NCBI GenBank assembly: GCA_903837525.1
Contig: CAILUU010000002.1
Coordinates: forward strand, 1 to 64,000
Origin: an uncultured Bacteroidota bacterium
GTDB lineage: Bacteria; Bacteroidota; Bacteroidia; Chitinophagales; Chitinophagaceae
Length of the DNA: 64,000 nucleotides
Direction: 5' to 3'
Position 1 is the first letter of the stretch. Each line of letters begins with the position of its first letter. Positions 5,833-60,444 of the stretch are shown here, one piece after another. The translations under genes were made by a program, and so were the position numbers. The notes beneath the pieces were generated by a model that had not been told where the DNA came from, searched no databases, and saw nothing but the letters and a program-made list of their open reading frames with translations.

Positions 5833-8454
5833 TTACAATAAAGCCTTCACCCTTTCAATCACTTCTCTCAATCCACCAACATCTTGCCCACCTGCAGTAG
5901 CCAAAGTTTTTTGTCCGCCGCCACCGCCTTTTATTAGCGGAGCAATATGTTCTTTAATAATTTTACTTGCGTCTAAATTTTTTGCTGCAACAACTGTATC
6001 GCTAATGCCAACAGCTACAAAAGGTTTACCATCTATATTGCAACAAAGTACAGCTACGTAGTCGTTTAATTTTGTTTTTAAATCAAAGCACAGCTTTTTA
6101 AGGTTATCGGCACTGCTTACTTCTACGATGTCTCCTATAAACGTAATGTTGTTAATTATTTCATCTTTTTGCAAAAGCTCATTTCTTAATACCACTAATT
6201 GCCTTGCTTCCAACGCTTCAATATGTTTTTTAAGAGAGGTGTTTTCGGCTTGTAAATTTTCTATAGATTTTGCTATGTCTGCTGGGTTTTTTAATAGCCC
6301 GCCGATTTCATTGATTACCTCAAAATTTTGATTGACATACTTTTCAGCAGCCTTACCACAAACGGCTTCTATTCTTCGAACACCAGCAGCAATAGCACTT
6401 TCGCTGGTAATTTTAAACAAACCTAATTCGCCTGTGTGGCCTACATGTGAACCACCGCAAAGTTCAATACTATACTTTTCATCCATTATTACCACCCTTA
6501 CTGTATCGCCATATTTTTCGCCAAACAATGCCATTGCTCCTAATGCCACTGCATCATCTTTTTTCATTTCTTTAATTACAATAGGTATGTTTTGACGAAT
6601 TTTTTCGTTTACCAGTTTTTCTACCCCTGCAATTTCGGCATCTGTAACTTTTGCAAAATGACTAAAATCAAATCGTAAATACTCTTCGTTATTTAAACTT
6701 CCTTTTTGTGCTACATGGTTGCCTAATATTTGGCGTAACGCCGCTTGCATTAAATGGGTAACGCTGTGGTGAACGGTAATTTCTTTTCTTCTGTCGGCAT
6801 CAACAAGTGCAATTACTTCACCATACATTTCTGGTAAAATACTTTCTGTAAAATGAATAATTAAATCATTTTCTTTCTTTGTATCAATCACTTTCAACTC
6901 TCCACTATCCATTTTCAACTCTCCACTATCACCAACCTGTCCACCGCTTTCGGCATAAAATGGAGTGTTTTCCAAAACTATTTGATACAGTTCTTTTCCC
7001 TTACCACTAACTTTTCTGTACTTAACAATTTTTGTTTTAGCTTCTAAACTATCATAACCTACAAAGGTTGTTTTGGCAACAGTGTTTACGTTAATCCAAT
7101 CTTCGATTTCTAATGCCGTGGCCGTTCTTCCTCTTTCTTGTTGTTCTTTTCTTGCTGCTTCATAACCTTCTTCATCAACCGCTAAGTTGTTTTCAGCTGC
7201 AATAAGTTTGGTAAGGTCAATAGGAAAACCAAAGGTATCATTCAACTCAAAGGCACTTCTGCCATCAATAATTTTTGATGATTGAGATGCCGTAATAACA
7301 TCTTCAATTCTTTTTAACCCTTTGTCTAACGTTCTCAAAAAAGCTTCCTCTTCTTCCTTTATAACTTTTGCAACAAAGGTTTCTTGCGCTTTTAATTCGG
7401 GAAAAACATTCTCAAACTGTGTAGCAATAATTGGAAGTAATTGATGCAATAACGGTTGTTTATAATTCAAGTAAGAATAATAGTAACGAATAGCCCGGCG
7501 TAAAATACGGCGGACAACATAGCCTGCACCTGTGTTGCTAGGCAATTGCCCATCGGCAATGGTAAAACTTATTGCTCTTATATGATCGGCTAAAACTCTA
7601 AAGGCAACCGACTCTTTACTATCATCGGCTTTGTAAATTTTATTTACAATTTCAACTGTTTTACTAATTGTGCCACTAAACACATCCGTATCATAATTAC
7701 TTTGTTTGCCTTGTATTACTCTTACTAATCGTTCAAAACCCATACCTGTATCTACATGTGTGGCCGGTAGCGGCTCTAGGGTTCCATCTTTTTTACGATT
7801 ATATTGTATAAATACATTGTTCCAAATTTCTATTACTTGTGGGTGGTCGTTGTTTACTAAATCTCTTCCTGGTATTTTTGCTCTTTCTTCATTGCTTCTA
7901 CAATCAACATGTATTTCACTACAAGGGCCACAAGGACCAGTATCTCCCATCTCCCAAAAATTATCTTTTTTATTACCATAAACAATTCTGTCTTCTGGTA
8001 AAATTTTCTTCCATTCTACCAATGCAATTTTACTAGATGGGATACCTTCTTTTTCATCGCCCTCAAAAACGGTTACATACAAACGGTCTTTATCTAACTT
8101 ATATACTTCTGTTAACAGCTCCCAACTCCATGCAATGGCTTCTTGTTTAAAATAATCTCCAAAACTCCAATTGCCCAACATTTCAAATAAAGTATGATGG
8201 TAGGTATCTACCCCTACCTCTTCCAAATCGTTATGTTTACCACTAACTCGTAAGCATTTTTGTGTATCGGCAATACGAGGGAAAGGGGCAGGTTTATTAC
8301 CTAAAAAGTAATCTTTAAACTGGTTCATACCAGCATTGGTAAATAAAAGCGTAGGGTCGTTTTTTATAACTACAGGTGCACTTGCTACAATTTTGTGTTG
8401 CTTACTTTCAAAAAAATCTAAAAATGCTTGTCTTATTTCGCTACTAGTCATCAT
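5833..8454 (-). CDS. alaS: Alanyl-tRNA synthetase
   Basis: Charges tRNA-Ala and deacylates mischarged tRNA in the cytoplasm. The 873 residues match the bacterial family. The N-terminal class II core begins with TSSEIRQAFLDFFESKQH and FTNAGMNQFKDYFLG. The editing domain carries the zinc/editing residues HHSVTH and CGGSHVGHTGELG. The C-terminal DHHA1-type domain ends with a glycine-rich HIAPLIKGGGGGQKTLATAG. Two Met codons in a row open the frame; either 8454 or 8451 is possible. Residues ~507-521 contain a tandem heptapeptide (DSGELKM/DSGELKV) made by a 21-nt DNA repeat, placed in the loop after ESGGQVG. A TACCTTTG box on the minus strand at 8517-8524 may be its -7 element. Confidence 0.97.
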   Translation of the reverse strand: MMTSSEIRQAFLDFFESKQHKIVASAPVVIKNDPTLLFTNAGMNQFKDYFLGNKPAPFPRIADTQKCLRVSGKHNDLEEVGVDTYHHTLFEMLGNWSFGDYFKQEAIAWSWELLTEVYKLDKDRLYVTVFEGDEKEGIPSSKIALVEWKKILPEDRIVYGNKKDNFWEMGDTGPCGPCSEIHVDCRSNEERAKIPGRDLVNNDHPQVIEIWNNVFIQYNRKKDGTLEPLPATHVDTGMGFERLVRVIQGKQSNYDTDVFSGTISKTVEIVNKIYKADDSKESVAFRVLADHIRAISFTIADGQLPSNTGAGYVVRRILRRAIRYYYSYLNYKQPLLHQLLPIIATQFENVFPELKAQETFVAKVIKEEEEAFLRTLDKGLKRIEDVITASQSSKIIDGRSAFELNDTFGFPIDLTKLIAAENNLAVDEEGYEAARKEQQERGRTATALEIEDWINVNTVAKTTFVGYDSLEAKTKIVKYRKVSGKGKELYQIVLENTPFYAESGGQVGDSGELKMDSGELKVIDTKKENDLIIHFTESILPEMYGEVIALVDADRRKEITVHHSVTHLMQAALRQILGNHVAQKGSLNNEEYLRFDFSHFAKVTDAEIAGVEKLVNEKIRQNIPIVIKEMKKDDAVALGAMALFGEKYGDTVRVVIMDEKYSIELCGGSHVGHTGELGLFKITSESAIAAGVRRIEAVCGKAAEKYVNQNFEVINEIGGLLKNPADIAKSIENLQAENTSLKKHIEALEARQLVVLRNELLQKDEIINNITFIGDIVEVSSADNLKKLCFDLKTKLNDYVAVLCCNIDGKPFVAVGISDTVVAAKNLDASKIIKEHIAPLIKGGGGGQKTLATAGGQDVGGLREVIERVKALL
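6891..6932. repeat. Period-7 repeat inside alaS (two 21-nt units)
   Basis: Two 21-nt units, each three heptamers: CTTTCAA CTCTCCA CTATCCA, then TTTTCAA CTCTCCA CTATCAC. The units differ at only a few positions. The length is a multiple of three, so the alaS frame is kept and the protein gains a duplicated heptapeptide. Confidence 0.85.
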
Positions 8455-8474
8455 ATTGACGTTATTTATATGAG

Positions 8475-8505
8475 TTGCTTTTTGTGTATTATGTGTTTAT
8501 ATTTG
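8475..8505 (+). promoter_or_regulatory. Candidate Bacteroidota-type promoter of the M23 gene
   Basis: TTG at 8475-8477, a 20-base spacer, and TATATTTG at 8498-8505 fit the Bacteroidota pattern (TTTG near -33, TAnnTTTG near -7). It places transcription start near 8512, about 40 bases before the ATG at 8553. This argues against the longer frame that opens at 8475. Confidence 0.5.
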
Positions 8506-8528
8506 CTATCCATTTACAAAGGTACAAA

Positions 8529-8552
8529 AAAGCCCCTTTAGGGGTTTGGGGC
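8529..8552 (+). repeat. GC-rich hairpin leader abutting a start codon
   Basis: An A-run is followed by GCCCC (8532-8536), TTTA, GGGG (8541-8544), TTT and GGGGC (8548-8552), directly before ATG at 8553. The GCCCC arm can pair with either G-rich arm, giving two mutually exclusive hairpins. A shorter related copy precedes bcp at 27171-27187. Confidence 0.5.
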
Positions 8553-9524
8553 ATGAAAAAAATAAAATATTACTATAACACCAATACGCTCCGGTACGAA
8601 AAACTGGTAACGTCATTACAGCTAAAACTGTTGCGGATATTTGGTTTTATGAGTGCCTTAGCGGTTAGTTGCCTAATTATAATTTCTTTATATAACAAGT
8701 TTGTGCCCAAAGCCACCGATAAAGAAAGTGTGTTAAAGTACGAATTAATGAAAGACAATTATGCTACACTTAACAGTAAGGTAAAATCGTTACAACAGCA
8801 AATGGCCGATTTAGAAAAAAGAGATAATGAGGTATATAGAAGTATTTTTGAAGCCACACCTGTTAGTGATAGTGCCAGAACAAAAGCAATAGAGAAAAAA
8901 AAGGAGCTAGAAAAAATTAGTTTAATGAATGATGATGAGTTAGGGAAAGATATTGCTAAAAATTTAGATAATATAACAGCTAGGGCTACCTATCAATATC
9001 AAAGCTATGCCACTATTGAGCAATTAATAAAAAACCAAGATAGTAAATTAGCTAGTATACCTGCAATACAGCCTTTAAGTAATAAAGAGCTTACACGTAT
9101 TGCTAGTGGCTTTGGCATGCGTATTCATCCTATATATGGCATAGCCAAAATGCATAATGGGCTTGATTTTACAGCCCCACAAGGCACACCTATTTATGCC
9201 ACAGGCGATGGTGTGGTAACTACAGCAGGTGTTGGCGGCGGTGCTGGTAATCATGTAATCATCAACCATGGTTATGGCTACGAAACGGTGTATATGCACA
9301 TGGTGCGCATTAAAACAAGTGTTGGGCAAAAATTAAAACGTGGCGAAGTAATAGGTTGGGTAGGTAATACAGGGGCTAGTACAGGACCCCATTGCCACTA
9401 CGAAGTACATATTAATGGAGAGCCTGTTGATCCTGTTTACTTCTTCTTTAATGATTTAAATGCAGAGCAGTATGATAGACTGTTAAAAATTGCTGCAACA
9501 GGTAGTGCTAAAAGTTTTGATTAA
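8553..9524 (+). CDS. M23-family murein endopeptidase, membrane-anchored with coiled coil
   Basis: Probably cleaves peptidoglycan cross-links in the periplasm, or activates amidases if catalytically weak. From the chosen start (MKKIKYYYNTNTLRYEKL) it has 323 residues: a short cytoplasmic part, one membrane helix (~residues 26-45, FGFMSALAVSCLIIISLY), a coiled coil (~60-130, LMKDNYATLNSKVKSLQQQM) and a C-terminal LytM domain. Zinc ligands and catalytic residues are present: HNGLD and GPHCHYEVH. The start at 8553 is preferred because the 26 codons upstream are not conserved-looking and a promoter covers them. It is divergent from alaS. Bacteroidota carry this architecture commonly. Confidence 0.92.
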   Translation: MKKIKYYYNTNTLRYEKLVTSLQLKLLRIFGFMSALAVSCLIIISLYNKFVPKATDKESVLKYELMKDNYATLNSKVKSLQQQMADLEKRDNEVYRSIFEATPVSDSARTKAIEKKKELEKISLMNDDELGKDIAKNLDNITARATYQYQSYATIEQLIKNQDSKLASIPAIQPLSNKELTRIASGFGMRIHPIYGIAKMHNGLDFTAPQGTPIYATGDGVVTTAGVGGGAGNHVIINHGYGYETVYMHMVRIKTSVGQKLKRGEVIGWVGNTGASTGPHCHYEVHINGEPVDPVYFFFNDLNAEQYDRLLKIAATGSAKSFD

Positions 9525-9599
9525 ACTCCTTTGCCCCCGAAAGAGAAACTAATTTCGAAGAAGATTTAATAAGAAATTATTTTTGTTTAATTTTATAAA

Positions 9600-10121
9600 A
9601 TGGCACTATCTCAAATAGCTTTTGATTTTTTTGAAGAGCCTTCTTTACCCCAAAAAAAAGAAGAAAAAAAACCCTTGCCTAAAAAGGTTAATCCTAAGCC
9701 AATTCTTTTATACAAAGAGACTAAACAAAAAAGCACCAGAGGACGAATGAGTATAAAAGATATGGAAGCTACTGTTGATTTAATTGATGTGCCAGCCGAC
9801 GAAGAGTTGTTTACTAAAAGTTATTACACCATTGGTAAGGTGGCTACTATGTTTAAAGTTAATCAAAGCCTTATACGCTTTTGGGAAAATGAATTTGATA
9901 TACTTAAGCCAAAAAAAAATGGCAAAGGCGATAGGTTATTTAGGCCAGAGGATGTAAAAAATTTAAAATTAATTTATACGTTATTACGAGAGCGGAAATA
10001 TACACTAGAAGGCGCAAAAGATTTTATTAAGAAAAATAAAAAGGTAGATGAAAAGTTTGAAATGATAGAACATTTGAAAAAATTGAAAAGCTTTTTGTTA
10101 GAATTAAAAGCAACGCTTTAA
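9600..10121 (+). CDS. MerR-family transcriptional regulator
   Basis: A 173-residue DNA-binding protein. Residues ~1-70 are a low-complexity, Lys-rich N-terminal extension. The winged-helix MerR domain follows with YYTIGKVATMFKVNQSLIRF and WENEFDILKPKKNGKGDRLF, then the second helix pair RPEDVKNLKLIYTLLRERKY and TLEGAKDFI. The C-terminal effector part is very short, as in the small MerR proteins that follow M23 genes in this phylum. No metal-binding Cys residues are visible, so a metal sensor is unlikely. Cotranscription with the M23 gene (76-base gap) is possible. Confidence 0.88.
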   Translation: MALSQIAFDFFEEPSLPQKKEEKKPLPKKVNPKPILLYKETKQKSTRGRMSIKDMEATVDLIDVPADEELFTKSYYTIGKVATMFKVNQSLIRFWENEFDILKPKKNGKGDRLFRPEDVKNLKLIYTLLRERKYTLEGAKDFIKKNKKVDEKFEMIEHLKKLKSFLLELKATL

Positions 10122-10227
10122 TCTAATGCTAAAAAATACTACTTAACTCTACTATAATCACTCATTAACACAATAAATATTTTTATGTTAATAAGATGCC
10201 TGATATTTAGTATTCAAAATTTGCAAA

Positions 10228-10746
10228 ATGAAAAAAATAATTATTTTATTGGCTTTAGTTAGCGCAAACGTTGGAGCAATTTCACAAGCACAATATGAGG
10301 TAACTACTGATGCTAAACACCCCGAGGTAAAAATATTTAGAGGCATTGTAAATAAATATTTAATTGAAAACGAAAATACATTTACTTGGATGCGAAGTGC
10401 TAAAGTTGGCTATAAGCCAGATACAGCAACGGTTAATGCATTTGAGCGTAATAAAGGCAAAGTTCAGTTTATAGTATTTGGTGGCACTTGGTGTGAGGAT
10501 ACTCAAAATATACTCCCCAAATTTTTTGCTTTACAAGAAAAAAGTGGAGTGCCAGATAATACCATTAGTTTTTTTGGGGTTAATAGAGAAAAAAAAACGC
10601 TTGCTAGTATTGCAGAAGCATTTAATATAAAAAATGTACCTACTATTATTATTATGAAAGATGGAATAGAAAAAGGTAGAGTAGTTGAATATGGAAAAAC
10701 AGGTAATTGGGATAAAGAGCTAGCCCAAATTTTAAATACACTATAA
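10228..10746 (+). CDS. Secreted thioredoxin-like protein with a single active-site Cys
   Basis: 172 residues with signal peptide MKKIIILLALVSANVGAISQ, so periplasmic. The thioredoxin fold is recognised from VQFIVFGGTWCEDTQNILPK and the cis-Pro loop NIKNVPTIIIMKDG. The usual CxxC is CEDT here: only the N-terminal Cys remains, so classic dithiol chemistry is not possible. Proteins with WCxDT at this place occur in Bacteroidota; their function is not settled. No operon partner is evident, with a 356-base gap downstream. Confidence 0.85.
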   Translation: MKKIIILLALVSANVGAISQAQYEVTTDAKHPEVKIFRGIVNKYLIENENTFTWMRSAKVGYKPDTATVNAFERNKGKVQFIVFGGTWCEDTQNILPKFFALQEKSGVPDNTISFFGVNREKKTLASIAEAFNIKNVPTIIIMKDGIEKGRVVEYGKTGNWDKELAQILNTL

Positions 10747-10840
10747 CCAAAAAGCAGCTACTATTTTAGGGTATAATAAATAATAAAAAATCCATATTGG
10801 TTAATTAGTATTATCCACTATGGAGTATCTACACTTTTAT

Positions 10841-10935
10841 TTAAAAAACAATTTTAATTTCATCAACAGTATCTGTTTGAGCAAAAAGGGAAGATGAAAA
10901 AGACAGTAAAAAAATAGTAGTAAATAGTTTAACAT
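10841..10935 (-). pseudogene. Possible relic of a small secreted protein (signal peptide only)
   Basis: On the minus strand ATG TTA at 10935, followed by a one-base shift within the next AAA run, gives MLKLFTTIFLLSFSSSLFAQ and then TDTVDEIKIVF before a TAA. This is a well-formed Bacteroidota signal peptide with an AQ cleavage site. Without the shift the ATG frame has no signal-like sequence. It could be chance, since the stretch is short. Confidence 0.3.
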
Positions 10936-11050
10936 AAAAGTTTATTAAGGTAAAAAAATAGGTGTACTTTTTAAAAAAAAATATTGCCAAGGTTTTATGC
11001 TTCTTTTTCTTTAAAAATAATTAATACAAATTGGCTAAAAATTTAGCCTA

Positions 11051-11082
11051 TTGATATGTTATTAAATTTAAGCTTAAATTTG
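11051..11082 (+). promoter_or_regulatory. Candidate promoter of kbl
   Basis: TTG at 11051-11053 and TAAATTTG at 11075-11082, spacer 21 bases, end about 20 bases before the kbl ATG. The -7 box matches TAnnTTTG exactly; the spacer is slightly long. Confidence 0.45.
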
Positions 11083-11102
11083 CTTTCTTAAACAATTGCT
11101 AT

Positions 11103-14606: not shown

Positions 14607-15899
14607 ATGGTATTAATTTACACCCATACTACAACTGCAAGGCTACAATATATTTGTACTTTTATATTCAAGCAGCTTTTAAATGTAAATTTTGCCATTA
14701 CGATAGACTCCGAAGAGTTTAAAAATTATGATGGGGTTTGTATAAATTATAGTAATAAACCAATTAAAAAAGAAGAATTAAAAATTGAAAATGTTAATTT
14801 ACTTTTTGAACAAAGTATTTTACCCCAGCAAATACAATGCTTTACCTACACCAACTACAAAGCTTTTTTTAAAATAGAAAATAGCGATATTGATTTTGAT
14901 ATTTTTGCAGCTTGTTTTTATTTGCTAAGTAGATACGAAGAGTATTTACCTCATAAAAAAGATTTATATGGCAGATATAATCATAAAGAAAGTTTAGCTT
15001 TTAACGAAAATTTTTTGCATCTTCCTTTAATAAATATTTGGGTAACTAATTTTATGGAAACCCTTAAAAATAAATTTGAAAATTCGAAATTCGAAAATTC
15101 GAAATTCAAATTTTTACCTACTTACGATATTGATATTGCCTATAAGTACAACCACAAAGGTGTTGTAAGAAATGTTGGAGGATTTTTTAAAAAGCCTTCG
15201 TTAGAACGAATAAAGGTTTTAATGGGTTTGCAAAAAGACCCTTTTGATAGTTATGATTGGATGAATGCATTACACACCAAATATAATTTAAGTGCCTTGT
15301 ACTTTTTTTTACTAGCAGAAAAAATAAGCAAGTACGATAAAAATATTGCCTTACATAAAAATGCGATGTGGCGATTAATAAAATTACATGCAAAAAAATA
15401 TAGTATAGGCATACACCCTAGTTGGCAAAGTGCCAATAACCTTTCTATGGTGAAAAAAGAAAAAAGTTATCTTGAAGCGATGAGTGAGTTATCGATCTCA
15501 GCATCTCGTCAGCATTTTATAAAATTTAATTTACCCCAAGGCTATACACAATTAATTGAAGCTGATATTACAGATGATTACAGCATGGGCTATGGCAGTA
15601 TAAATGGTTTTAGAGCATCGGTTGCGTCCTCTTTTAATTGGTTTAATTTAGAGACAAATGAAGAAACCAATTTATGCATTCATCCTTTTTGTTTTATGGA
15701 TGCAAATAGCCATTACGAACAAAAACAAACAGCACAACAAAGTTTTGATGAAGTAATGCAGTATTATAAAATTTGTGCAGCAGTTGGGGGTACGTTAATT
15801 ACTATTTTTCATAATAATTTTTTAGGTACAAGTAAAGAATTTGAAGGTTGGAGCAGTATGTATGAGCAGTTTTTAGCACAAATAAATGACAACCTCTAA
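14607..15899 (+). CDS. Polysaccharide-deacetylase-like protein of unknown role
   Basis: 430 residues without a signal peptide or membrane helix. The N-terminal ~130 residues are a separate domain. The C-terminal part has features of the NodB-like deacetylase fold: FLPTYDIDIAYKYN (an Asp-x-Asp motif), GIHPSWQSAN (His in the second motif), LTIEADITDDYSMGYG-like text around residue 315, and NLCIHPFCFMDAN. This suggests a carbohydrate deacetylase with an atypical metal site. A 15-nt tandem repeat encodes ENSKFENSKF at about residues 157-168. The start at 14607 follows lutB by 65 bases. Family assignment is moderate; the substrate is unknown. Confidence 0.65.
   Translation: MVLIYTHTTTARLQYICTFIFKQLLNVNFAITIDSEEFKNYDGVCINYSNKPIKKEELKIENVNLLFEQSILPQQIQCFTYTNYKAFFKIENSDIDFDIFAACFYLLSRYEEYLPHKKDLYGRYNHKESLAFNENFLHLPLINIWVTNFMETLKNKFENSKFENSKFKFLPTYDIDIAYKYNHKGVVRNVGGFFKKPSLERIKVLMGLQKDPFDSYDWMNALHTKYNLSALYFFLLAEKISKYDKNIALHKNAMWRLIKLHAKKYSIGIHPSWQSANNLSMVKKEKSYLEAMSELSISASRQHFIKFNLPQGYTQLIEADITDDYSMGYGSINGFRASVASSFNWFNLETNEETNLCIHPFCFMDANSHYEQKQTAQQSFDEVMQYYKICAAVGGTLITIFHNNFLGTSKEFEGWSSMYEQFLAQINDNL
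15078..15107. repeat. 15-nt tandem repeat (8+7) inside the deacetylase-like gene
   Basis: GAAAATTC GAAATTC occurs twice in tandem and is bordered by AAATTT on both sides. It keeps the frame and adds a duplicated ENSKF peptide. Confidence 0.85.
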
Positions 15900-16925: not shown

Positions 16926-18443
16926 TTAATGTTTAAAATGTCTTAGTCCAGTAATAACCATTGCTAACTTATTTTGAACACAATAGTCAACACTGTCCTT
17001 ATCTCGTATGCTGCCACCGGGCTGTATAAAGGCTGTAATACCTGCGGCATGTGCAATTTTAACACAATCATCAAATGGAAAAAAAGCATCGCTAGCTAAT
17101 GTTGCTTCATTTAAATCAAAATTAAATTGCTTTGCTTTTTCAATACTTTGGCGCAAAGAGTCTATTCGGCTTGTTTGCCCACAACCCTTACCAATAAGTT
17201 GTTTGTTTTTTACTAGTACAATGCTATTGCTTTTTAAATGTTTAGCAATAATATTTGCAAAAGTTAAATCTTCTTTTTCTTGTGTAGATGTTTCTCTGCC
17301 TCCAACTTCTTTCCACTCGATAAAATTACCTTCATCATTTTGCTGTGTTAAAATACCATTTAGAATTGACTTTGTTTGGTGGGTGAGTAGTGAGTGGTGA
17401 ATACTGAGTTGAAGCAATATTCTATTCTTTTTTGTTTTTAACATGGTTAATGCCTCTTCGGTAAAAGATGGGGCAATTAATACTTCAAAAAATATTTCAT
17501 TGATAGCATTTGCTGTGTCAACATCAATAGTCTTATTGCAAACTAATACGCCTCCAAATGCACTTTCAGGATCGCCTGCTAGGGCTTTTTGCCAAGCACC
17601 AAAAACGGTAGTTGATGTGGCTACACCACATACATTGGTGTGTTTTATAATAGCAAATAAGGCATCTGCCTCATCTAAAAAATCAGCTTTTAGTTGCATA
17701 GCTGCATCAACATCCACCAGATTATTATAGGATAATTCTTTACCATTTAGTTGAGTAAATAACTCCTTTAAATTGCCATAGAAAACGCCTTGTTGGTGTG
17801 GGTTTTCTCCATAGCGTAATATGCTTTTATCTTTATTAAATGGATTAATAAATTGGGTTTTATTAAAGTAATTACTAATCGCAATATCATAACCTGTACA
17901 TACATCAAAAGCTTTAATCGCAAACATTCGGCGTTGCTCCAATGTTGTTTCGCCATGTTGTGTTTCTAGTAATTGCTCTACTATTCCGTAGTCTTTTTTT
18001 GCGGCAATTACCACAACATCTTTGTGGTTTTTTGCAGCACCACGTATCATGCTTGGCCCACCAATGTCTATTTTTTCAATAATTAATGTTTCGTCGTTTG
18101 TTGCAGTAACAGTTTCTTCAAAGGGGTACAAATCAACAATTACCAAATCTATTTCGGGAATATTATATTGTTGCATTTCGGCAATATGTTGGACATCATC
18201 TCTTTTACCTAAAATACCTCCAAATACTGTTGGGTGTAACGTTTTAACTCTACCGCCTAAAATTGATGGGTAAGTTGTTAAGCTTTCAACAGGTATACAA
18301 GGTACCTGTAAATCTTCTATAAATTTTTGTGTACCACCTGTAGAATAGATTACTACATTGTTCTTATGTAATAGTTTTATAATGTTTTCTAGTCCATCTT
18401 TATAAAAAACGGAAATTAAAGCAGACTTAATTTTTTTTGTCAT
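16926..18443 (-). CDS. purH: Bifunctional AICAR formyltransferase / IMP cyclohydrolase
   Basis: Performs the last two steps of IMP synthesis in the cytoplasm. 505 residues, usual for the family. The N-terminal cyclohydrolase (MGS-like) domain has SALISVFYKDGLENI, VIYSTGGT and GGRVKTLHP. The C-terminal formyltransferase domain has LRYGENPHQQGVFYG, VCGVATS, ASDAFFPFDD and AFIQPGGSIRDKDS. At residues ~345-356 a five-heptamer DNA repeat has inserted LSIHHSLLTHQ in a variable loop. It lies 12 bases after comEC in map order and both read leftward. Confidence 0.96.
   Translation of the reverse strand: MTKKIKSALISVFYKDGLENIIKLLHKNNVVIYSTGGTQKFIEDLQVPCIPVESLTTYPSILGGRVKTLHPTVFGGILGKRDDVQHIAEMQQYNIPEIDLVIVDLYPFEETVTATNDETLIIEKIDIGGPSMIRGAAKNHKDVVVIAAKKDYGIVEQLLETQHGETTLEQRRMFAIKAFDVCTGYDIAISNYFNKTQFINPFNKDKSILRYGENPHQQGVFYGNLKELFTQLNGKELSYNNLVDVDAAMQLKADFLDEADALFAIIKHTNVCGVATSTTVFGAWQKALAGDPESAFGGVLVCNKTIDVDTANAINEIFFEVLIAPSFTEEALTMLKTKKNRILLQLSIHHSLLTHQTKSILNGILTQQNDEGNFIEWKEVGGRETSTQEKEDLTFANIIAKHLKSNSIVLVKNKQLIGKGCGQTSRIDSLRQSIEKAKQFNFDLNEATLASDAFFPFDDCVKIAHAAGITAFIQPGGSIRDKDSVDYCVQNKLAMVITGLRHFKH
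17377..17411. repeat. Five degenerate heptamers inside purH
   Basis: Plus-strand heptamers TGGTGGG TGAGTAG TGAGTGG TGAATAC TGAGTTG run without interruption. The complement (CTCA-rich) matches the wording of the repeats in mutL and at the ABC-F 3' end. Confidence 0.8.
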
Positions 18444-46207: not shown

Positions 46208-48091
46208 TTGCAGCAGAATAAACAAATTTTAATTTTGCCAGATATTATACATTTATTACCCGATAACATTGCTAATCAGATAGCAGCAGGGGAGGTTATA
46301 CAACGACCAGCTAGTGCTGTAAAGGAATTAATGGAAAATGCTGTAGATGCTGGGGCTACCGAAATAAAATTAATTATAAACGACGCAGGTAAATCGCTGA
46401 TACAAGTTATTGATAATGGTAAGGGGATGAGTGAAACAGATGCTAGAATGGCCTTTGAACGCCATGCCACATCTAAAATTAGCAATATAGACGACTTGTT
46501 TAAAATTAAAACGATGGGTTTTAGAGGAGAAGCCTTAGCAAGTATTGCTGCTGTTGCTCAAGTAGAACTTAAAACCAAACGACTAGAAGACGAAACAGGC
46601 ATTCTGTTAGAAATAGAAAATAGCATTGTAAAAAAACAAGAGCCTATTGCCTCTGCTATAGGTACAAGCATTGCCATGAAAAACTTGTTTTTTAATGTAC
46701 CTGCTCGACGAAATTTTTTAAAAAGTAACCCTGCCGAGTTAAGGCATATTGTAGATGAGTTTATAAGAGTGGCTATGGCTTTTCCGGAATTATTTTTTTC
46801 GTTAACAAGCAATGGGCAACAAGTATTTCATTTAGATGCTGGTACACTTAAGCAACGTATTGTGCAACTATTAGGTAATAACTATAACGCAAAAGTGGTA
46901 AGTGTGCAGGAGGAAACAGATTACATGAATATTTATGGTTTTGTAGGTAAACCAGAAACGGCTAAAAAAACTAGAGGAGATCAATACTTTTTTGTAAACA
47001 ATAGGTTTATTAAAAGTGCTTACTTAAACCATGCTGTAATGAATGCGTTTGATAGCATGATTGCAAAAGATAGCTTCCCCATGTATGCTTTGTTTATAGA
47101 TTTAGATCCAGCTCAATTAGATATTAATGTACACCCAACCAAGCAAGAAATAAAATTTGAGGATGAAAAAATTGTATACGCTTTTGTGCAAAGTGCAGTA
47201 AAGCATGCGCTAGCACAGTTTAGCATTACTCCTACGTTAGATTTTGAATTGGATGCATCTATTCAGCACTTAGATGCGGTAAGCAAACCCTTTACCGACG
47301 AAAAAAAATCTACTGCAACATCATCTTCTTTATACAGCACATTTACAAAAAAAAATCAGGCACATTTTGTAGAAAGTAAAAGTGAGTTAAGGCATTGGAA
47401 AGATTTGTACGGGGAACCAAAGGGGGTAAGTGGTGAACAGTCAGCAGTCAGTAATAACCTGCAAAATAAGCAAGGCAATGAAATTTTTACACCTCTTAAT
47501 CCTCAACCCTCACCATTCACTTCTCACCATTCACCACTCACTCAACTACATAATACGTTTATTATTTTACCAACACAAAATGGTTACTATTTAGTTAACC
47601 AACAAAATGCACATGAACGTGTTTTATACGAACGGTTTTTGTTAGCGGTAGATGGTAAACCTATGGCAACACAGCAAAGCCTTTTCCCTGTAACTATTGA
47701 TTTAGCAATGGCAGATGCTGTTTTACTTAACGAGCTTTTACCCGATTTGCAACACTTAGGTTATACCATAGAACCTTTTGGTAACAACACTTTTGTACTA
47801 CAAGGTACACCTGCCGATATTGCCGAAGGCAACGAAAAAGCATCCATAGAAAAAATGTTGGAGCAATACAAGCATTTTAGTAACGACTTAAAATATAGTA
47901 AACGAGAAAAATTAATACGCTCCTTAGCATTACAGCAAGCCATAAAACCGGGTACACACTTAACCGAAAAAGAAATAAAAAATTTGGTAGAGGATTTATT
48001 TAACTGCATTACACCAAACGTTACTGCCAATGGTAAACCTACTTATTTAGAGTTTAAAAAAGATGAGTTGAACAAGATGTTTGGGCGTTAA
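46208..48091 (+). CDS. mutL: DNA mismatch repair protein MutL, non-ATG start
   Basis: A mismatch-repair ATPase, 627 residues. GHKL motifs: NQIAAGEVIQRPASAVKELM with ENAVDAGATEIKL, DNGKGMS and TMGFRGEALASIAAV. The transducer domain continues to ~residue 330. A variable linker (~340-450) contains two period-7 repeats. The C-terminal domain has NQQNAHERVLYERF where endonuclease-active MutL proteins read DQHA; the leading Asp is Asn here. No ATG precedes the conserved start: TTG at 46208 or TTG at 46235 (giving LPDIIHLLPDNIANQ) must be used. It is divergent from the GH3 gene and overlaps the dacB 3' end by four bases. Confidence 0.95.
   Translation: MQQNKQILILPDIIHLLPDNIANQIAAGEVIQRPASAVKELMENAVDAGATEIKLIINDAGKSLIQVIDNGKGMSETDARMAFERHATSKISNIDDLFKIKTMGFRGEALASIAAVAQVELKTKRLEDETGILLEIENSIVKKQEPIASAIGTSIAMKNLFFNVPARRNFLKSNPAELRHIVDEFIRVAMAFPELFFSLTSNGQQVFHLDAGTLKQRIVQLLGNNYNAKVVSVQEETDYMNIYGFVGKPETAKKTRGDQYFFVNNRFIKSAYLNHAVMNAFDSMIAKDSFPMYALFIDLDPAQLDINVHPTKQEIKFEDEKIVYAFVQSAVKHALAQFSITPTLDFELDASIQHLDAVSKPFTDEKKSTATSSSLYSTFTKKNQAHFVESKSELRHWKDLYGEPKGVSGEQSAVSNNLQNKQGNEIFTPLNPQPSPFTSHHSPLTQLHNTFIILPTQNGYYLVNQQNAHERVLYERFLLAVDGKPMATQQSLFPVTIDLAMADAVLLNELLPDLQHLGYTIEPFGNNTFVLQGTPADIAEGNEKASIEKMLEQYKHFSNDLKYSKREKLIRSLALQQAIKPGTHLTEKEIKNLVEDLFNCITPNVTANGKPTYLEFKKDELNKMFGR
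47431..47458. repeat. Period-7 repeat 1 in the mutL linker
   Basis: TGGTGAA CAGTCAG CAGTCAG TAATAAC: four heptamers, two identical. They encode part of the linker (VSGEQSAVSNN). Confidence 0.75.
47501..47549. repeat. Period-7 repeat 2 in the mutL linker
   Basis: CCTCAAC CCTCACC ATTCACT TCTCACC ATTCACC ACTCACT CAACTAC: seven consecutive heptamers with a shared YTCAMC core. They encode QPSPFTSHHSPLTQL. The same words recur at 60410-60444 and, on the other strand, in purH. Confidence 0.85.
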
Positions 48092-49440
48092 TACTTCTCA
48101 ATTATATCCACTAAAAATTTTTCTACCGCTTTACGTACAGGGGGTGCACCTGTTATGTAGTTATTATTTAAAATAGAAAAAATAAGTAATTTTCCTTTAT
48201 TGGTGATTAGATAACCACTTAGTGCACAGTTGTTACTAAGCGTACCTGTTTTCGCAAAAATACTACCAGCGTATTTTTTGTAATAATTAGATAGTGTACC
48301 AGTGCCTCCAGTTGGTAAAATGTTTTTTAATCTGTTTAAACCAAATTCATTTTTTGTTTTGTTAAGTAGATAAACAAATGATTGTGGGGTGGCTAAATTA
48401 TATCTGCTAAGCCCACTACCATCAACCCATTTGGGGCGTTGTGGCAAATCGGATAAAGAAGTTTTTAGTAAAGTGTCAATTATTTTCTCATCACTCATAT
48501 AGCCAATAAATTCATTACTTGCCATAAGCAAGGTTTGCTCTGCAAAGAAATTATCGCTGCGGTGCATCATGGGTTTAAATAAAGAGTCAGTGGGTTGGGA
48601 ATACAATTTTTGCCATGTTATGTTAGAGTTAAACCCCATAGAAAATTTATCTTTGCTAATATTCAATGTATCGCTAAGTAAAAGAAGTTGATCATGATAG
48701 AGCCTATCGGTAGGGAATGGTATTTGTTGATAGCTAAATCTTTTATCTGATTTTCTGAAATTAAATATAGGATGAGATTCGTTTCTTGTAATTGTATAAT
48801 TGCCCCTTTTTGAAGATAGAGCCATCATAGGCTCTTCAAAATATTTCTTGCTTACTCTGTCTGGTGGGTTTGACCTAAGGGTATTATCATTTAAATAAAA
48901 AGTAAATACATTTCCATACAATGGAAAGGTTGACCGTTCAGCCATATAAGCCTCTCCTTGATCATCCCATGCCCAACCAAATCCATACTTTTTAAAATCT
49001 TGTTTAACTGGAATTAAATAAGTTATTGTATTATTATTGTTAGAAAAATACTTGAGTATAGGATGTTTTTTAAAATCTGGGTGTAAAAAAGTTGGATCAC
49101 CCGTTGGTTCAAAATACAGAGTATCTGAGTTTTCAAAAACCTTTGCCCCCACCAAACTATCTCCCAAATACTTCATTCCAGCATAAAGCGTAAATAATTT
49201 GGTATTACTAGCAGGGATAAAATACTGTGTTGCGTTATGGTTGTATAAATATTTATTCGTTGCAGGTTCGTAAATACTAATACCTATGTGGCCAGTACGT
49301 ATGGCACTATCGTTTAACAAAATAGCATTGGCTTGTTTACTTATTTGTTTTGTTACAGAGCAAGAAGTTGCCAATAGGCAGTAGGCAATTAGCAATAAAC
49401 AAATTGAGGTATTAAAAAATGAAACACTTAATCTTCTCAT
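48088..49440 (-). CDS. dacB: D-alanyl-D-alanine carboxypeptidase/endopeptidase (PBP4 type)
   Basis: Trims peptidoglycan stem peptides in the periplasm. 450 residues. The N-terminus (NTSICLLLIAYCLLATSCSV) is a lipoprotein-like signal with TSC. The penicillin-binding triad is present: SxxK in IPASNTKLFT, SxN in HRSDNFFAEQ and KTG in FAKTGTLSNN. The insert between the first two motifs is the class C PBP domain. The signal-peptide core is encoded by a period-7 repeat. It is convergent with mutL with a four-base overlap. Confidence 0.94.
   Translation of the reverse strand: MRRLSVSFFNTSICLLLIAYCLLATSCSVTKQISKQANAILLNDSAIRTGHIGISIYEPATNKYLYNHNATQYFIPASNTKLFTLYAGMKYLGDSLVGAKVFENSDTLYFEPTGDPTFLHPDFKKHPILKYFSNNNNTITYLIPVKQDFKKYGFGWAWDDQGEAYMAERSTFPLYGNVFTFYLNDNTLRSNPPDRVSKKYFEEPMMALSSKRGNYTITRNESHPIFNFRKSDKRFSYQQIPFPTDRLYHDQLLLLSDTLNISKDKFSMGFNSNITWQKLYSQPTDSLFKPMMHRSDNFFAEQTLLMASNEFIGYMSDEKIIDTLLKTSLSDLPQRPKWVDGSGLSRYNLATPQSFVYLLNKTKNEFGLNRLKNILPTGGTGTLSNYYKKYAGSIFAKTGTLSNNCALSGYLITNKGKLLIFSILNNNYITGAPPVRKAVEKFLVDIIEKY
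49370..49404. repeat. Period-7 repeat encoding the dacB signal peptide
   Basis: GCCAATA GGCAGTA GGCAATT AGCAATA AACAAAT: five heptamers with GCAAT core on the plus strand. On the coding strand they give the hydrophobic ICLLLIAYCLLA. Confidence 0.8.
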
Positions 49441-50606: not shown

Positions 50607-50612
50607 CAAAAC

Positions 50613-50732: not shown

Positions 50733-50755
50733 AAAATAAAATTTATCTTTATACT

Positions 50756-53905: not shown

Positions 53906-54002
53906 GTGTTAGATATAATGAACAATTTTTTTTAAAATTTAAGTAAATAAGAATGCCACTTAAACGAAAGCACAAAATACAGAAAAAAACTATATTTCTA
54001 AA

Positions 54003-54650: not shown

Positions 54651-54680
54651 AAAAAATCCTCTGATTTATAGTCGGAGGAT
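54651..54680 (-). terminator. Terminator directly in front of the nth start codon
   Basis: ATCCTC (54656-54661) pairs with GAGGAT (54675-54680). On the minus strand the stem is followed by a six-T run that touches the nth ATG (54650). It probably terminates the transcript of the 77-residue gene at 54707. Confidence 0.65.
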
Positions 54681-54706
54681 CTAAATTAATTTAAATTAAA
54701 GTAAAC

Positions 54707-54940: not shown

Positions 54941-55026
54941 TTTAATAAATTGCTGTTAAGAATTAAATATCTTTTATCCGCCATTATAAACGATAACTAG
55001 ATATTAATATTGTGTTACCTTATATT

Positions 55027-55335
55027 TTACCTAATATCTACTTGATTACTTATTACAAAAATATCTTCATTGTCTTTTTTCATTAAATATTTTTCTCTTG
55101 CATATTTTTCAATAGTTTGAGCATTTGTTTTTAATAAGTCTAACTCTTTATGAGCTTCTGTAATAGTTTTTACCTGATACTTCTCACTTTTTTGCAAACT
55201 GTTTAATTTTTTATACTGCTTAATTCCGCTAAAAATGTCTTTCTCTGCAAAAAAGAGCATCCAAATTAAAAAAAAGCTGCCGGTTAAAAAATACTTGTTT
55301 TTAATCCAATTTGGTATATGTGCTAATAATTTCAT
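55027..55335 (-). CDS. FtsB/DivIC-family septum initiator
   Basis: 102 residues: one membrane helix (~14-33, YFLTGSFFLIWMLFFAEKDI) then a coiled coil with leucine repeat (KKLNSLQKSEKYQVKTITEA) and the conserved C-terminal block EKYAREKYLMKKDNEDIFV. This is the DivIC layout of proteins that join FtsL and FtsQ in the divisome. It follows eno by 29 bases, a common gene order in Bacteroidota. Confidence 0.88.
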   Translation of the reverse strand: MKLLAHIPNWIKNKYFLTGSFFLIWMLFFAEKDIFSGIKQYKKLNSLQKSEKYQVKTITEAHKELDLLKTNAQTIEKYAREKYLMKKDNEDIFVISNQVDIR

Positions 55336-55364
55336 ATTTAAACGTAATGTAGATGGACTAAATT

Positions 55365-57081
<1,717 letters not shown>

Positions 57082-57435
57082 TTACTCAACTAGGCTTATT
57101 TCTTCTGGTTTTGTAATTACAATTTGTGGTTTGTTTTTAAACAATTCAACAATACCTGTAACACAAAGTTTTTTATTTTTGTAAAATTCTGCAGGTGGTG
57201 TAGTAAAATTGGCAAAATCTTTTGCCAGTATTGCAATAGTAAGTGGCGATGCTGGATAAGCGGCACCTAAATTAATTAGTACAACTTTATCAGTAGCTTT
57301 TATGCCAAATACTTGGCTGCAAACCGCTACAGATTTTCCTATATACTGAGTAACAGAATCAATAAAAATTTTTGTTTGTGCAATCAGGCTATTTAATAAA
57401 AAAACAAGACTGATAGTAAGGATACTTTTTTTCAT
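57082..57435 (-). CDS. Small secreted OB-fold-like protein
   Basis: 117 residues with signal peptide MKKSILTISLVFLLNSLIAQ. The mature part alternates beta strands: IGKSVAVCSQVFGIKATDKV, VLINLGAAYPASPLTIAIL and KLCVTGIVELFKNKPQIVIT. The closing VTGxVxxFxxxPQIxI pattern is typical of OB-fold proteins of the tRNA-anti-like type. Two Cys are available. The role is unknown. It lies in a minus-strand pair with the cyclophilin gene (45-base gap). Confidence 0.75.
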   Translation of the reverse strand: MKKSILTISLVFLLNSLIAQTKIFIDSVTQYIGKSVAVCSQVFGIKATDKVVLINLGAAYPASPLTIAILAKDFANFTTPPAEFYKNKKLCVTGIVELFKNKPQIVITKPEEISLVE

Positions 57436-57480
57436 TTTACTTTACTATTTTTTGCAAACATAATAATTGTACAGCTATTA

Positions 57481-58062
57481 CTAGTAACTTCTAGGTATTT
57501 TAAAACCATATTGGTTTAATTTTTTTGCTTTTACTTTCATAATATTTACATCAAGTGTTATAGCTTTAAGGGGGGTGTCGGTTTTATCTTTAGGTGCATT
57601 AGCAATAGCATCAACAATATCCATACCTTTTATAACTTTACCATAAACGGTGTAATCGTTATTAAGCCTAGCTAGCCCTTTTTTATTTTGTACAATATAA
57701 AATTGGCATCTTGCGCTTACTTTACCTGGGTTATCATCTCTGCCAGCAGCAAATGTGCCGTACTCATGTTTTAGGGTAGGCACAAATTCGGGGGCAAGTA
57801 AATAGGTGGTGTCTTTAAAACCCTGTTCAGTATCTGGGCAGCCACCTTGTATTACAAAGTTGGGTATTACACGGTTAAAGGTTAAGCTATCCCAATAACC
57901 AGTTTTTGCTAACTGTATAAAACTGGCTTTGTGTTTGGGTGTTTCATTATACAGCCATACTAGTATTTCGCCATAGGGTGTTTTTATTTGAGCTATTTCG
58001 TATTTTTTTTGCGCAAAACTTTTGCTTGAAATAATTAATAAAAAAAGGAGTAGTTTTTTCAT
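57481..58062 (-). CDS. Cyclophilin-type peptidyl-prolyl isomerase, secreted
   Basis: 193 residues with signal peptide MKKLLLFLLIISSKSFAQ, so periplasmic. Cyclophilin core: ILVWLYNETPKHKASFIQLA, LTFNRVIPNFVIQGGCPD (the FHRVIPxFxxQGG motif with Asn for His), ARCQFYIVQNK and YTVYGKVIKGMDIVDAI. Probably helps folding of envelope proteins. The Asn for His change at the FHR position is known in prokaryotic cyclophilins. Confidence 0.92.
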   Translation of the reverse strand: MKKLLLFLLIISSKSFAQKKYEIAQIKTPYGEILVWLYNETPKHKASFIQLAKTGYWDSLTFNRVIPNFVIQGGCPDTEQGFKDTTYLLAPEFVPTLKHEYGTFAAGRDDNPGKVSARCQFYIVQNKKGLARLNNDYTVYGKVIKGMDIVDAIANAPKDKTDTPLKAITLDVNIMKVKAKKLNQYGFKIPRSY

Positions 58063-58162
58063 ATTAGTTTATTACTTTTAATACAATAGAATCATATTTT
58101 ATTAGTAGCACAAATATATTACAAAGCAAAAGGTATCTTTAATAAAATATTTACAAAATAAA

Positions 58163-59200
58163 ATGACCATCACGTTTAACAATCGTATAAAGCAACTGCT
58201 AACCTTAGTTATTTTAATAGCCTTAGTTTTAGTAATTGTAAAAAGTTTACACGTTTTTATACCGGGTATTTTAGGCGCAGTCACCTTATATATATTAAGC
58301 AGAGAAAACTATTTTAAATTATTATACAAACAAAAGTGGAAGCCTAGCTTAGCGGCTTTTTTTTATATTTTAATTTACCTATTATTATTTGGAATACCCA
58401 TTTATCTTGCTGTTACATTACTTAGTCCAAAAATTGAAGCTGCTCTTAGTAACCCTACAGCTACTATTGATGCGTTAAAAAACATAGCCATTGTAGTGCA
58501 ACAAAAAGTAGGCTATACTTTTATTTCCGAAAAAAATATTGCAGCGGCACTTTCAAGAGTTGCTAACACACTGCCAGGGTTTTTAAATAGTACAGCAAAC
58601 TTAGTTACCAACTTAGCTATTATGTTATTCTTACTGTATCACATGTTGGTAAATGCTAAAAAAATGGAGCTTACACTTTACAAAGCCATTCCGTTAAAAG
58701 ATGAAAATGTAGATTTATTAGCAAGAGAAGGCAAAAAAGTTGTAAAAGCCAATGCTTTAGGGCTTCCTATAATTGCTATTATACAAGGCATTACAGCAAC
58801 CATTGGGTATATAATTTTTGGTGTACCCGATTGGGGATTGTGGGGTTTTTTAACAGGCGTTTGTGCATTTATACCTGTGGTTGGTACAATGATAATTTGG
58901 ATACCCTTAGTTATCTACTTATTTGCCATTGGGCAAAATAATATGGCTATTGGCTTACTGCTTTACAGTATAATTGTTACAGGTAATATAGACTATATAG
59001 CACGAATTACTATTATGAAAAAAATGGGAGATGTGCACCCCATTATTACCATTTTAGGTGTTATTGTTGGCTTTAATTTATTTGGTTTTATTGGGTTGAT
59101 ATTTGGACCATTAATTATCAACTACACCTTGGTGTTATTTAAAATTTATATGAATGAATATGTGGAAGAAAGTAAAAATGAAGAGGTTCCAGTAAAATAA
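58163..59200 (+). CDS. AI-2E-family transporter
   Basis: 345 residues with seven to eight membrane helices. The conserved parts are the N-terminal pair (LVILIALVLVIVKSLHVFIP), the central GIPIYLAVTLLSPKIEA region, and the C-terminal VVGTMIIWIPLVIYLFAIGQ and GVIVGFNLFGFIGLIFGPLI block. Members export small molecules or act as ion antiporters; the name does not prove autoinducer transport. It meets the DUF5009 gene end to end without a spacer. Confidence 0.9.
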   Translation: MTITFNNRIKQLLTLVILIALVLVIVKSLHVFIPGILGAVTLYILSRENYFKLLYKQKWKPSLAAFFYILIYLLLFGIPIYLAVTLLSPKIEAALSNPTATIDALKNIAIVVQQKVGYTFISEKNIAAALSRVANTLPGFLNSTANLVTNLAIMLFLLYHMLVNAKKMELTLYKAIPLKDENVDLLAREGKKVVKANALGLPIIAIIQGITATIGYIIFGVPDWGLWGFLTGVCAFIPVVGTMIIWIPLVIYLFAIGQNNMAIGLLLYSIIVTGNIDYIARITIMKKMGDVHPIITILGVIVGFNLFGFIGLIFGPLIINYTLVLFKIYMNEYVEESKNEEVPVK

Positions 59201-60349
59201 CTACACTTTTATATAAATTTTCTTTTTATTTAGCACCCAAGCAAAAAACCACATCATCCCAATAAAGCAAAGGGCATAAAAAAACGAACCAATCCTAGGG
59301 TCGGATGGAAAAATAAGTTTACAAACGTTTTCGTAAAACCAACTAAAAGGCGATAAATATTTAGCTTTACCTTCAGGCGTAAAGCCATTACTAATGCGTA
59401 TTAAACCAAGCAAACGAGGTAAAGCACCGCTGAGTACAAAAATAAATAATGCGTTTTTCCCAAACACATCAAAAAATTTCGTCCAGCCCCCACGGTTATT
59501 TTTAAATTCAATTAAATAAATTAAAACCGAAAGTACTATTAAAGCTAAGCCTGTGGTGTAAATGGTGTAGCTGCTTGTCCATATTTTTTTGTTGATAGGA
59601 AAAACCATATCCCAACAAAAGCCTGCGAAAATAAATACACAACCGGCAATAAATAATCCGTTGAGCATTTCGTGTGTTTTGCCTTTTGTTACAATATAAT
59701 TGCCAATTAAGTAACCAAAAATTACCTGGCTAATGGCAGCAAAAATACTAAACAAACTTTCTGGGTCAAAAGGCACACCTTCGCCACTGTAAATATGTTT
59801 TGTGCCAAATAGTTTTATATCTAAAAGAGTGCCATACCAACCTTTAATTGAAAAAGAGTCTAATGGATTTGTAGCAACACATAAAAGCCAGTACACTAAA
59901 AGTATACTGCAGCTTACTACAAAAGCCCCTCTTACTTTAAAAAAATGAATAATAACGGCAGCACAAAAATAACATAAAGCTATACGTTGTAATACCCCAA
60001 AAAAACGAAGATTAGCAAACGGTTTCATAATAATACTACCAGCATCGTTATATTTTATAAACGGAAACCAATTTAATAATAAGCCTATTAACAAAATAAG
60101 TAACGTACGTTTTATTACTTTTTGCCAAAAAATATTTTTTTCCTCTAAACGTGGTAGTACAAATGCCATAGCATTACCTACAGCAAATAAAAAAAACGGA
60201 AAAACTAAATCAGTGGGTGTGCAGCCATGCCAACTTGCATGCTCAAGTGGTGCAAAAATATGCCCCCAACTACCGGGGTTATTTACCAATATCATTAAGG
60301 CAACCGTAGCCCCTCTAAAAACATCGAGTGAGTAAAAGCGTTGGTTCAT
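59201..60349 (-). CDS. DUF5009/heparan-alpha-glucosaminide N-acetyltransferase-like membrane protein
   Basis: 382 residues, about ten helices. The N-terminal block RFYSLDVFRGATVALMILVN, with DVFRG and the following NNPGSW and HASWHGCTPTDLVFPFFLFA, is characteristic of the HGSNAT/NagX family that moves acetyl groups across the membrane. The His in the first luminal loop is the probable active site. The substrate may be an amino sugar of envelope glycans; no cluster partner fixes this. Confidence 0.9.
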   Translation of the reverse strand: MNQRFYSLDVFRGATVALMILVNNPGSWGHIFAPLEHASWHGCTPTDLVFPFFLFAVGNAMAFVLPRLEEKNIFWQKVIKRTLLILLIGLLLNWFPFIKYNDAGSIIMKPFANLRFFGVLQRIALCYFCAAVIIHFFKVRGAFVVSCSILLVYWLLCVATNPLDSFSIKGWYGTLLDIKLFGTKHIYSGEGVPFDPESLFSIFAAISQVIFGYLIGNYIVTKGKTHEMLNGLFIAGCVFIFAGFCWDMVFPINKKIWTSSYTIYTTGLALIVLSVLIYLIEFKNNRGGWTKFFDVFGKNALFIFVLSGALPRLLGLIRISNGFTPEGKAKYLSPFSWFYENVCKLIFPSDPRIGSFFYALCFIGMMWFFAWVLNKKKIYIKV

Positions 60350-60409
60350 ACAAGCAGGTTTATAATTAGGCGGCTAACTACATAAATGAAAGGTACATAT
60401 TTTTTCAAA

Positions 60410-60444
60410 ACTCACCATTCACCACTCACTGTTTCTCACTCAAC
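60410..60444. repeat. Period-7 repeat across the 3' end of the ABC-F gene
   Basis: ACTCACC ATTCACC ACTCACT GTTTCTC ACTCAAC: five heptamers, four with the YTCAMC core seen in mutL. The ABC-F stop codon (60426-60428) lies inside them, so the last residues (LELSEKQ) are made from the repeat. Confidence 0.8.

Follow-up and report, generated by a model that had tools for sequence, protein, structure and literature searches.

Heptad runs in a Chitinophagaceae genome: a case for hairpin elements resembling 23S rRNA intervening sequences between and inside protein-coding genes

Why do runs of degenerate seven-nucleotide words recur inside unrelated housekeeping genes, with a period that does not fit the codon? 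The question is raised by 64,000 nt of an uncultured Bacteroidota bacterium of the Chitinophagaceae (assembly GCA_903837525.1, contig CAILUU010000002.1, positions 1 to 64,000; hereafter the window), for which a preliminary description listed six such runs, in alaS, purH, mutL (two), dacB and across the stop codon of an ABC-F gene, and ascribed them to an element or a templated slippage process. We suggest, with a probability of about 0.6, that part of the heptad runs are hairpin elements resembling the intervening sequences (IVSs) of 23S rRNA, lying between or inside protein-coding genes. All six runs were located where they had been described, with a lag-7 identity of 0.50–0.68 and values of mostly 0.1–0.45 at other non-harmonic lags. 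Scored by log-odds autocorrelation, the window holds six period-7 segments of at least 9, six of at least 10 and four of at least 11 (means of 60 order-2 Markov shuffles 1.23, 0.35 and 0.10, respectively). Open reading frame (ORF) calls were mechanical throughout.

The case starts in mutL (46208..48091, plus strand; 627 aa), whose second run scores 17.1, the highest period-7 value of the window, and whose first, weak alone, scores 8.9. The two runs are mutually inverted (match score 13; 99th percentile of the null 10.8), a relation that had gone unnoticed in the preliminary description. On the plus strand, the left arm occupies 47426..47458, its matched stretch being 47426–47448, and the C-rich right arm 47495..47549, with the spacer at 47459..47494 (47 nt from the matched left stretch to the right arm); the right run has no G and 24 C when counted over 47501–47549. 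Both fall between the N-terminal and C-terminal domains of the protein (Pfam DNA_mis_repair, residues 219–335, and MutL_C, residues 444–585). From their inverted match, composition and period, the mutL runs are two arms of one ORF-less element. A remnant of the IVP gene family (PF05635), sought between these arms, was not found; we infer that the pair is an IVS-like element outside rRNA, of the same class as the IVP-bearing copies presented below.

Inverted pairing is not confined to mutL. The surveyed part of the own genome, 464 kb or about a fifth of the 2.17-Mb assembly, comprised the window and 20 further 20-kb stretches, chosen from contigs in which the pattern had matched. It holds 30 period-7 segments that score at least 11, and 6 of these arrays have an inverted partner of at least 11 within 250 bp (controls: direct 1, complement 4, reverse 2). 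The same holds for 19 of the 59 arrays found in 587 kb of relatives, that is, 80 named loci around mutL (L061–L140), mostly Chitinophagaceae by title (direct 6, complement 8, reverse 4). Moreover, the pairs are polar: in 31 of 32 array-derived pairs, collected without use of the IVP gene and including two that overlap (L133), the left arm is G-rich and the right one C-rich. By set, this polarity is seen in 5/5 pairs of the own genome, 11/12 of the relatives, 8/8 of other Bacteroidota and 7/7 of the Der loci and, since the arms are inverted, it holds on either strand.

What lies between such arms when they are far apart? The own genome has a 549-nt spacer between two GTPase genes that we take, by sequence, to be Der and Era, and in it a 120-aa gene has a GCAGTTG array on one side and a TGCCCAC array on the other. 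Its product matches PF05635 23S_rRNA_IVP (E 1.2e-30) and TIGR02436 (four helix bundle protein), as well as the PDB entries 2rld and 2gsc. Three PF05635 loci occur in this genome, with an open frame (C22), one stop (C2) and three stops (C7); scores of 15, 16 and 13 were obtained for the flanks of the three loci. The copy with one stop (G000:C2:64930-65229; about 1483–1860 of L340) lies 930 bp beyond the window; it sits between sugar-nucleotide-like genes, and its GTTTAG and CTAAAC repeats nearly reach both neighbors. Requiring an inverted match of at least 14 between 220-bp flanks, we found inverted flanks at 60 of 78 complete PF05635 loci (22/29, 15/19 and 23/30 in three sets) and direct matches at 10 of 78 (2, 3 and 5 per set), with 3–8% in shuffled pairings; three truncated loci of 32 and one of 20 are omitted here (keeping the three gives 22/32, direct 3/32), and the loci, best-per-genome hits plus 20 hand-picked from listed hits, are thereby biased toward well-conserved genes. 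Ordinary genes of 100–300 aa have inverted flanks in 14 of 152 cases in the own genome and in 11 of 262 in other Bacteroidota, the highest scoring of these 11 proving to be itself a PF05635 gene.

The flanks of IVP genes also carry the heptad signature. Arrays of at least 11 are present at period 7 in 38 of the 78 loci and at period 8 in 13, with seven other periods together accounting for one. Arms chosen by inverted match alone display a lag-7 identity of 0.507 (shuffles: mean 0.305, maximum 0.326), the best lag being 7 in 43 and 8 in 11 of 60 arm pairs, and 58 of these 60 pairs have the G-rich arm on the left. By eye, units of about 8 are apparent in the flanks of L403, L406 and L418. The family itself is common, scoring above cut-off in 87 of 118 sampled Bacteroidota genomes, own included.

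If these are elements, do filled and near-empty sites exist? Among 19 same-genus loci with both Era and Der, seven spacers (L372–L378; 76–287 nt) hold heptad arrays of words other than those of the own genome, five of them as inverted pairs, and six of the seven have arrays that start 0–4 nt from where the era stop codon begins. L384 has a single weak array (8.5), the L386 spacer measures 17 nt and nine others (51–325 nt) are without a period-7 array of at least 8. A different family, a CCCCCTCCGCCCCCTAAAGGGGGAACT-like repeat, was seen in the spacers of L381, L384, L385 and L389, with both ends inverted in L381 and L389. A transposon carrying the gene between two TGCCAAC arrays was considered and dropped: that gene is Der by its sequence, and the IVP gene sits in the neighboring spacer instead. 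Rfam matches among eight sources were limited to a tRNA and a thiamine pyrophosphate (TPP) riboswitch, in L147/L339, and none fell in the window; in L147 the riboswitch (8256–8353) and the tRNA (7987–8058) are near an Era-like gene.

A second junction lies between genes that, from their sequence, we assume to be ALDH and RidA. Measured between the stop codon of ALDH and the PLG motif of RidA in 13 loci, this junction is near-empty in 5 (38–65 nt), spans 96–132 nt in 3 and reaches 439–814 nt in 5 (of 28 RidA loci, 20 were inspected, five of these without a recognized motif). All five long junctions have arms together with an IVP frame, whole or partial, with just the end of that frame recognizable in G012. 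Four species (G002, G006, G008 and G011) have the IVP joined in frame to RidA, the translated right arm serving as the linker (L452 2094–2948; L453 2031–2906; L454 1945–2721; L360, minus strand). Upstream of RidA in L464 (G022), the junction shows another hairpin family, GGGCTAAAGCCC-like. Decay is visible in the own genome too, where L148 retains a decayed IVP fragment between arms (E 2.3e-6 over 256 segments), so that the S23/IVP frame is represented at three own loci and, as a fragment, at a fourth. It is mainly this gradation between an open gene and bare arms that leads us, as a matter of judgment, to class ORF-less pairs with the IVP-bearing copies.

Is seven truly the preferred unit? 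Period 7 leads in the own genome and in the 80 relatives. In the former, segments of at least 11 number 30 at period 7, 7 at period 8, 16 at period 6 and 17 at period 9 (shuffle, period 7: 3) and 0, 0, 0 and 1 at periods 5, 10, 11 and 13; in the relatives, the counts for periods 7, 8, 6 and 9 are 59, 8, 9 and 5 (shuffle, period 7: 3), and over both sets periods 5, 10, 11 and 13 yield 0–3. The preliminary description had named equal numbers at periods 6, 8 or 9 as evidence against its proposal. The relatives depart clearly from equality, as does period 8 in the own genome; the raised own values at periods 6 and 9, which fit less well, we take as a coding, protein-level background of multiples of three. 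Its claims of a period of 7 in many copies, and of words common to unlinked loci, are borne out, the latter by 41 genome matches to the ACTCACC/ATTCACC pattern with up to two mismatches, the reversed pattern giving 20. Consensus words are many and diverse among 106 arrays, and copies within the six runs are degenerate, although near-perfect arrays occur too (TGCCAAC, 14 times). Once runs are removed no lag-7 excess is left, and the excess is thus confined to discrete runs; on the same ground we rejected the idea of a general mutation process in which misalignment by 7 acts diffusely. As for taxonomic range, the mutL of the window is closest to Ferruginibacter-like Chitinophagaceae, the probable genus. 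Other Bacteroidota were sampled as 40 stretches of 20 kb, in which we counted 8 period-7 segments in six same-genus or same-family stretches (two from one genome), none in one same-order stretch, 7 in 15 same-class stretches and 2 in 18 from the rest of the phylum.

How far, then, does the element account extend to the remaining runs of the window (coordinates on the plus strand)? Composition is arm-like in the alaS (G 0, C 17), purH (G 16, C 1) and ABC-F (G 1, C 15) runs, as in the right mutL run, and not in the first mutL run (G 7, C 5) or in dacB (G 7, C 6). The C-rich, unpaired ABC-F run (60405..60444) spans the stop codon of a minus-strand gene (60426–62351), on whose strand the first heptads are opened by the stop codon TGA; it scores 10.1 and its best partner 9 (95% of the null, 10). 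The G-rich purH run (17377..17411, in purH 16926–18443, minus strand) is unpaired as well (score 10.1; best partner 10 at 400 bp distance, 99% of the null 10.2). Both are probably lone or decayed arms, as suggested by the word family and strand composition that they have in common with mutL. In alaS (5833–8454, minus strand) the run at 6890..6932, G-free and readable as a heptad or as a 21-mer (scores 13.5 at period 7 and 18.8 at period 21; translation GDSGELKMDSGELK), has no inverted partner and may belong to the same class or be a local duplication. The dacB run (49370..49404, in dacB 48088–49440, minus strand; score 12.0), of mixed composition, within the N-terminal hydrophobic stretch and also without inverted partner, is a doubtful member. 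An additional run of AAATTCG units, absent from the preliminary list, lies at 15072..15113 inside the ORF 14607–15899 and scores 13.1, 12.3 and 17.4 at periods 7, 8 and 15. Elsewhere in the own genome, heptad runs were noted in two other long ORFs, at L143 16303–16377 (670 aa), where the run forms an inverted pair, and at L157 19481–19541 (506 aa), where it is pair-like.

Orthologs complete the picture for the coding runs. Among 99 distinct mutL linkers (those of at least 90 nt, identical ones removed), 27 score at least 9 at period 7 and one at the best of six other periods, and the heptad words vary among species. Two ABC-F orthologs have other heptad runs near residue 556, and dacB has heptad-like runs near its N-terminus in three other species. 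Residues shared with orthologs, which the preliminary description had regarded as contradicting its proposal, do occur in part: the first alaS unit (GDSG) is partly conserved protein, and the last ABC-F residues (C-terminal ELSE) are largely conserved.

Several observations weigh against the element reading. Over the alaS run, 27 of 29 other orthologs show no difference in length; the purH run, in a variable loop, is as long as in the G018 ortholog and one residue longer than in most; and mutL linkers with arrays have a median of 168 nt against 162 nt without (p = 0.055). A simple insertion therefore fails for the coding cases, and coding runs overwrite more than they insert. The element proposed at the outset survives for part of the runs, given inverted arms, an IVP gene between arms and filled or near-empty junctions, and falls as an insertion in alaS and purH. 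The majority of arrays have no partner in reach, and one own IVP locus (L341) stays at 13, below the threshold of 14. The unit order is mirrored between arms just weakly (15.9 observed, 15.0 permuted, 39 pairs), and unit-by-unit mirror copying, with rank at most 0.1 in 6 of 39 pairs, was set aside as weak. In the RidA set, the arms of three species match across species too and only G011 differs, so coevolution of arms at this site was rejected, just one of four species departing. At any filled site, either gain or loss may account for the difference. Mobility and excision from RNA, finally, are putative, and no transposase was found. Two further candidates were rejected: stepwise change in the close pair G005/G011 (their 68 kb of alignment contains a single array, the same in the two) and a substitution bias through editing or an error-prone copier (238 transitions, 249 transversions).

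In the model that we favor, a complete element would consist of two inverted arms of degenerate tandem heptads, less often octads, the 5′ arm being G-rich and C-poor and the 3′ arm C-rich on either strand, with a four-helix-bundle IVP/S23 gene (PF05635), its decayed remnant or a short loop between them, and the arms would tend to adjoin neighboring coding sequence. Once transcribed, the arms may pair into a long stem that, by analogy with known IVSs, RNase III could cut; copies inside operons would thereby be removed from the mRNA or tolerated in it. Arms would be kept by architecture and not by sequence: slippage by 7 nt together with copying between arms could leave them periodic and complementary despite changing words. 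Within coding sequence, an arm can serve as a translated linker, as seen in the IVP–RidA fusions. The choice of 7 may reflect a slippage preference, or stop codons in three inward frames, a modest effect. More tentatively still, and at odds we would not call favorable, these could be a widespread Bacteroidota class, mobile or self-renewing, with ends defined by architecture, which IVP proteins would move or maintain in trans, which would be lost again from the RNA and which could overwrite housekeeping linkers such as that of mutL with little change in length.

What else could generate such runs? Plain heptanucleotide slippage, a possibility of some standing though clearly behind the hairpin elements, would raise local arrays from a native seed, let point mutations erode them and leave survivors in tolerant protein segments and spacers, which IVP genes would merely share. 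The lead of period 7 and the near-perfect TGCCAAC arrays agree with it, and so do locus-specific words that include native codons (GDSG in alaS; ELSE and the stop codon in ABC-F), the kept lengths of alaS and purH, the many unpaired arrays and a unit similarity that drops with distance (0.76, 0.71, 0.68, 0.61, 0.54, a series biased by the lag-7 selection). Yet slippage predicts neither inverted pairs nor a G-left polarity of 31:1 and 58:2, nor the association with PF05635 (60/78, against 4–9% of ordinary genes), and in mutL, alaS and purH single 7-nt steps would shift the reading frame. Chance with protein-level repetition, through peptide duplication or a hydrophobic stretch, would concern some coding runs (alaS, dacB, perhaps purH). 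The stronger period-21 signal and conserved first unit of alaS are in its favor, as are the hydrophobic setting of the dacB run and the similar runs there in other species; still, four window segments of at least 11 where shuffles give 0.1, an alaS run G-free over 42 nt and the arm-like 16 G to 1 C of purH make this the least probable explanation, very improbable indeed.

Host-maintained intercistronic hairpins, selected as regulatory or RNA-processing stems with the IVP as a host protein that uses them, are unlikely, though less so than chance. Such stems might protect 3′ ends, offer RNase III sites or, because 7 equals 1 modulo 3, place stop codons in all inward frames. The arrays that start at the era stop codon fit this proposal, and half of the IVP left arms (30 of 60) contain stops in all three inward frames (20% in composition-matched shuffles), with TAG enriched 1.58-fold and inward stops exceeding outward ones in 36 of 60 pairs (fewer in 12, tied in 12). 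TGA and TAA, however, are not enriched beyond composition, no more than 4 of 326 own genes have their stop codon repeated at two or more of +7, +14 and +21, species differ patchily in what a given junction holds, and arrays are found inside coding sequence as well. The stop codon as a general seed of arrays was likewise rejected: it recurs at +7 in 25 of 326 own genes, against 9–19 at offsets 3–29 except +4 (31), with no +7 excess in three other gene sets.

How do the proposed hairpin elements compare with known systems? The cause of bacterial heptamer repeats is not agreed in the portions of PMC4679880, PMC2700814 and PMC4692102 that we draw on; in two of these (PMC4679880, PMC4692102), the proposal of Mrazek (2007) is cited that polymerase slippage favors 7-nt steps. 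According to the relevant sections of PMC4679880, TAACTGA and other heptamer direct repeats occur in Beggiatoaceae, Cyanobacteria and some Bacteroidetes, five of the last with TAACTGA-type repeats, which makes the earlier statement of no good description for this phylum too strong. They resemble the present runs in their unit of 7, intergenic and sometimes genic position, proximity to start and stop codons and strain specificity; they differ in being one exact word, mostly direct, and those sections describe neither arm polarity nor an IVP link. Measured against such short tandem repeats (TAACTGA, STRR and LSSR), our runs share the tandem unit of 7 and not the exact or near-exact single word. 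The heptanucleotide elements of Geobacter metallireducens (PMC2700814) and the G-rich heptads of Xanthomonas and Nostoc (PMC4692102), as there summarized, are similarly tandem, between and within genes, with inverted arrangements in Xanthomonas; unlike ours, they keep a fixed G-rich consensus and are discussed as regulatory RNA or G-quadruplex elements.

Miniature inverted-repeat transposable elements are small and non-autonomous, with inverted repeats. The heptad elements are likewise short, with inverted ends and copies with and without an ORF, whereas their arm words vary by copy and species instead of forming terminal repeats common to copies, and no transposase was found for them. A link between IVP and heptads gives shape to new questions: whether IVP proteins act on heptad-arm hairpins, whether RNase III removes these from mRNAs, and why the unit is 7. 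If the link is true, spacers and protein linkers throughout the phylum would be shaped by IVS-like elements, which are easily overlooked for want of a fixed sequence at their ends. In the open-access literature, as far as its searchable portions go and with subscription papers mostly outside the scope, no report of heptad-armed IVP genes outside rRNA was found; for a Flavobacterium, a table in PMC5524665 lists four-helix-bundle genes with housekeeping genes on either side, their flanks uncommented in that table.

The closest likeness is with the 23S IVSs of Coxiella, Leptospira and others. The passages on Coxiella in PMC4990558 describe an S23 ORF, a 28-bp terminal stem, excision by RNase III and tandem heptameric repeats near the 5′ end, variable in number, and state that S23/IVP proteins had no known function at that time. 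Our elements differ in lying between or inside protein-coding genes (mutL, Era–Der, ALDH–RidA); their copies are many, the word changes from place to place and ORF-less copies are common. Terminal inverted repeats are present in the mutL pair and at 60 of 78 PF05635 loci, and with the 23S IVSs of those passages the proposed elements share stem-forming terminal inverted repeats, in the ORF-bearing copies an S23/IVP ORF in the loop, the decay of that ORF and, in Coxiella, tandem heptameric repeats near the 5′ end.

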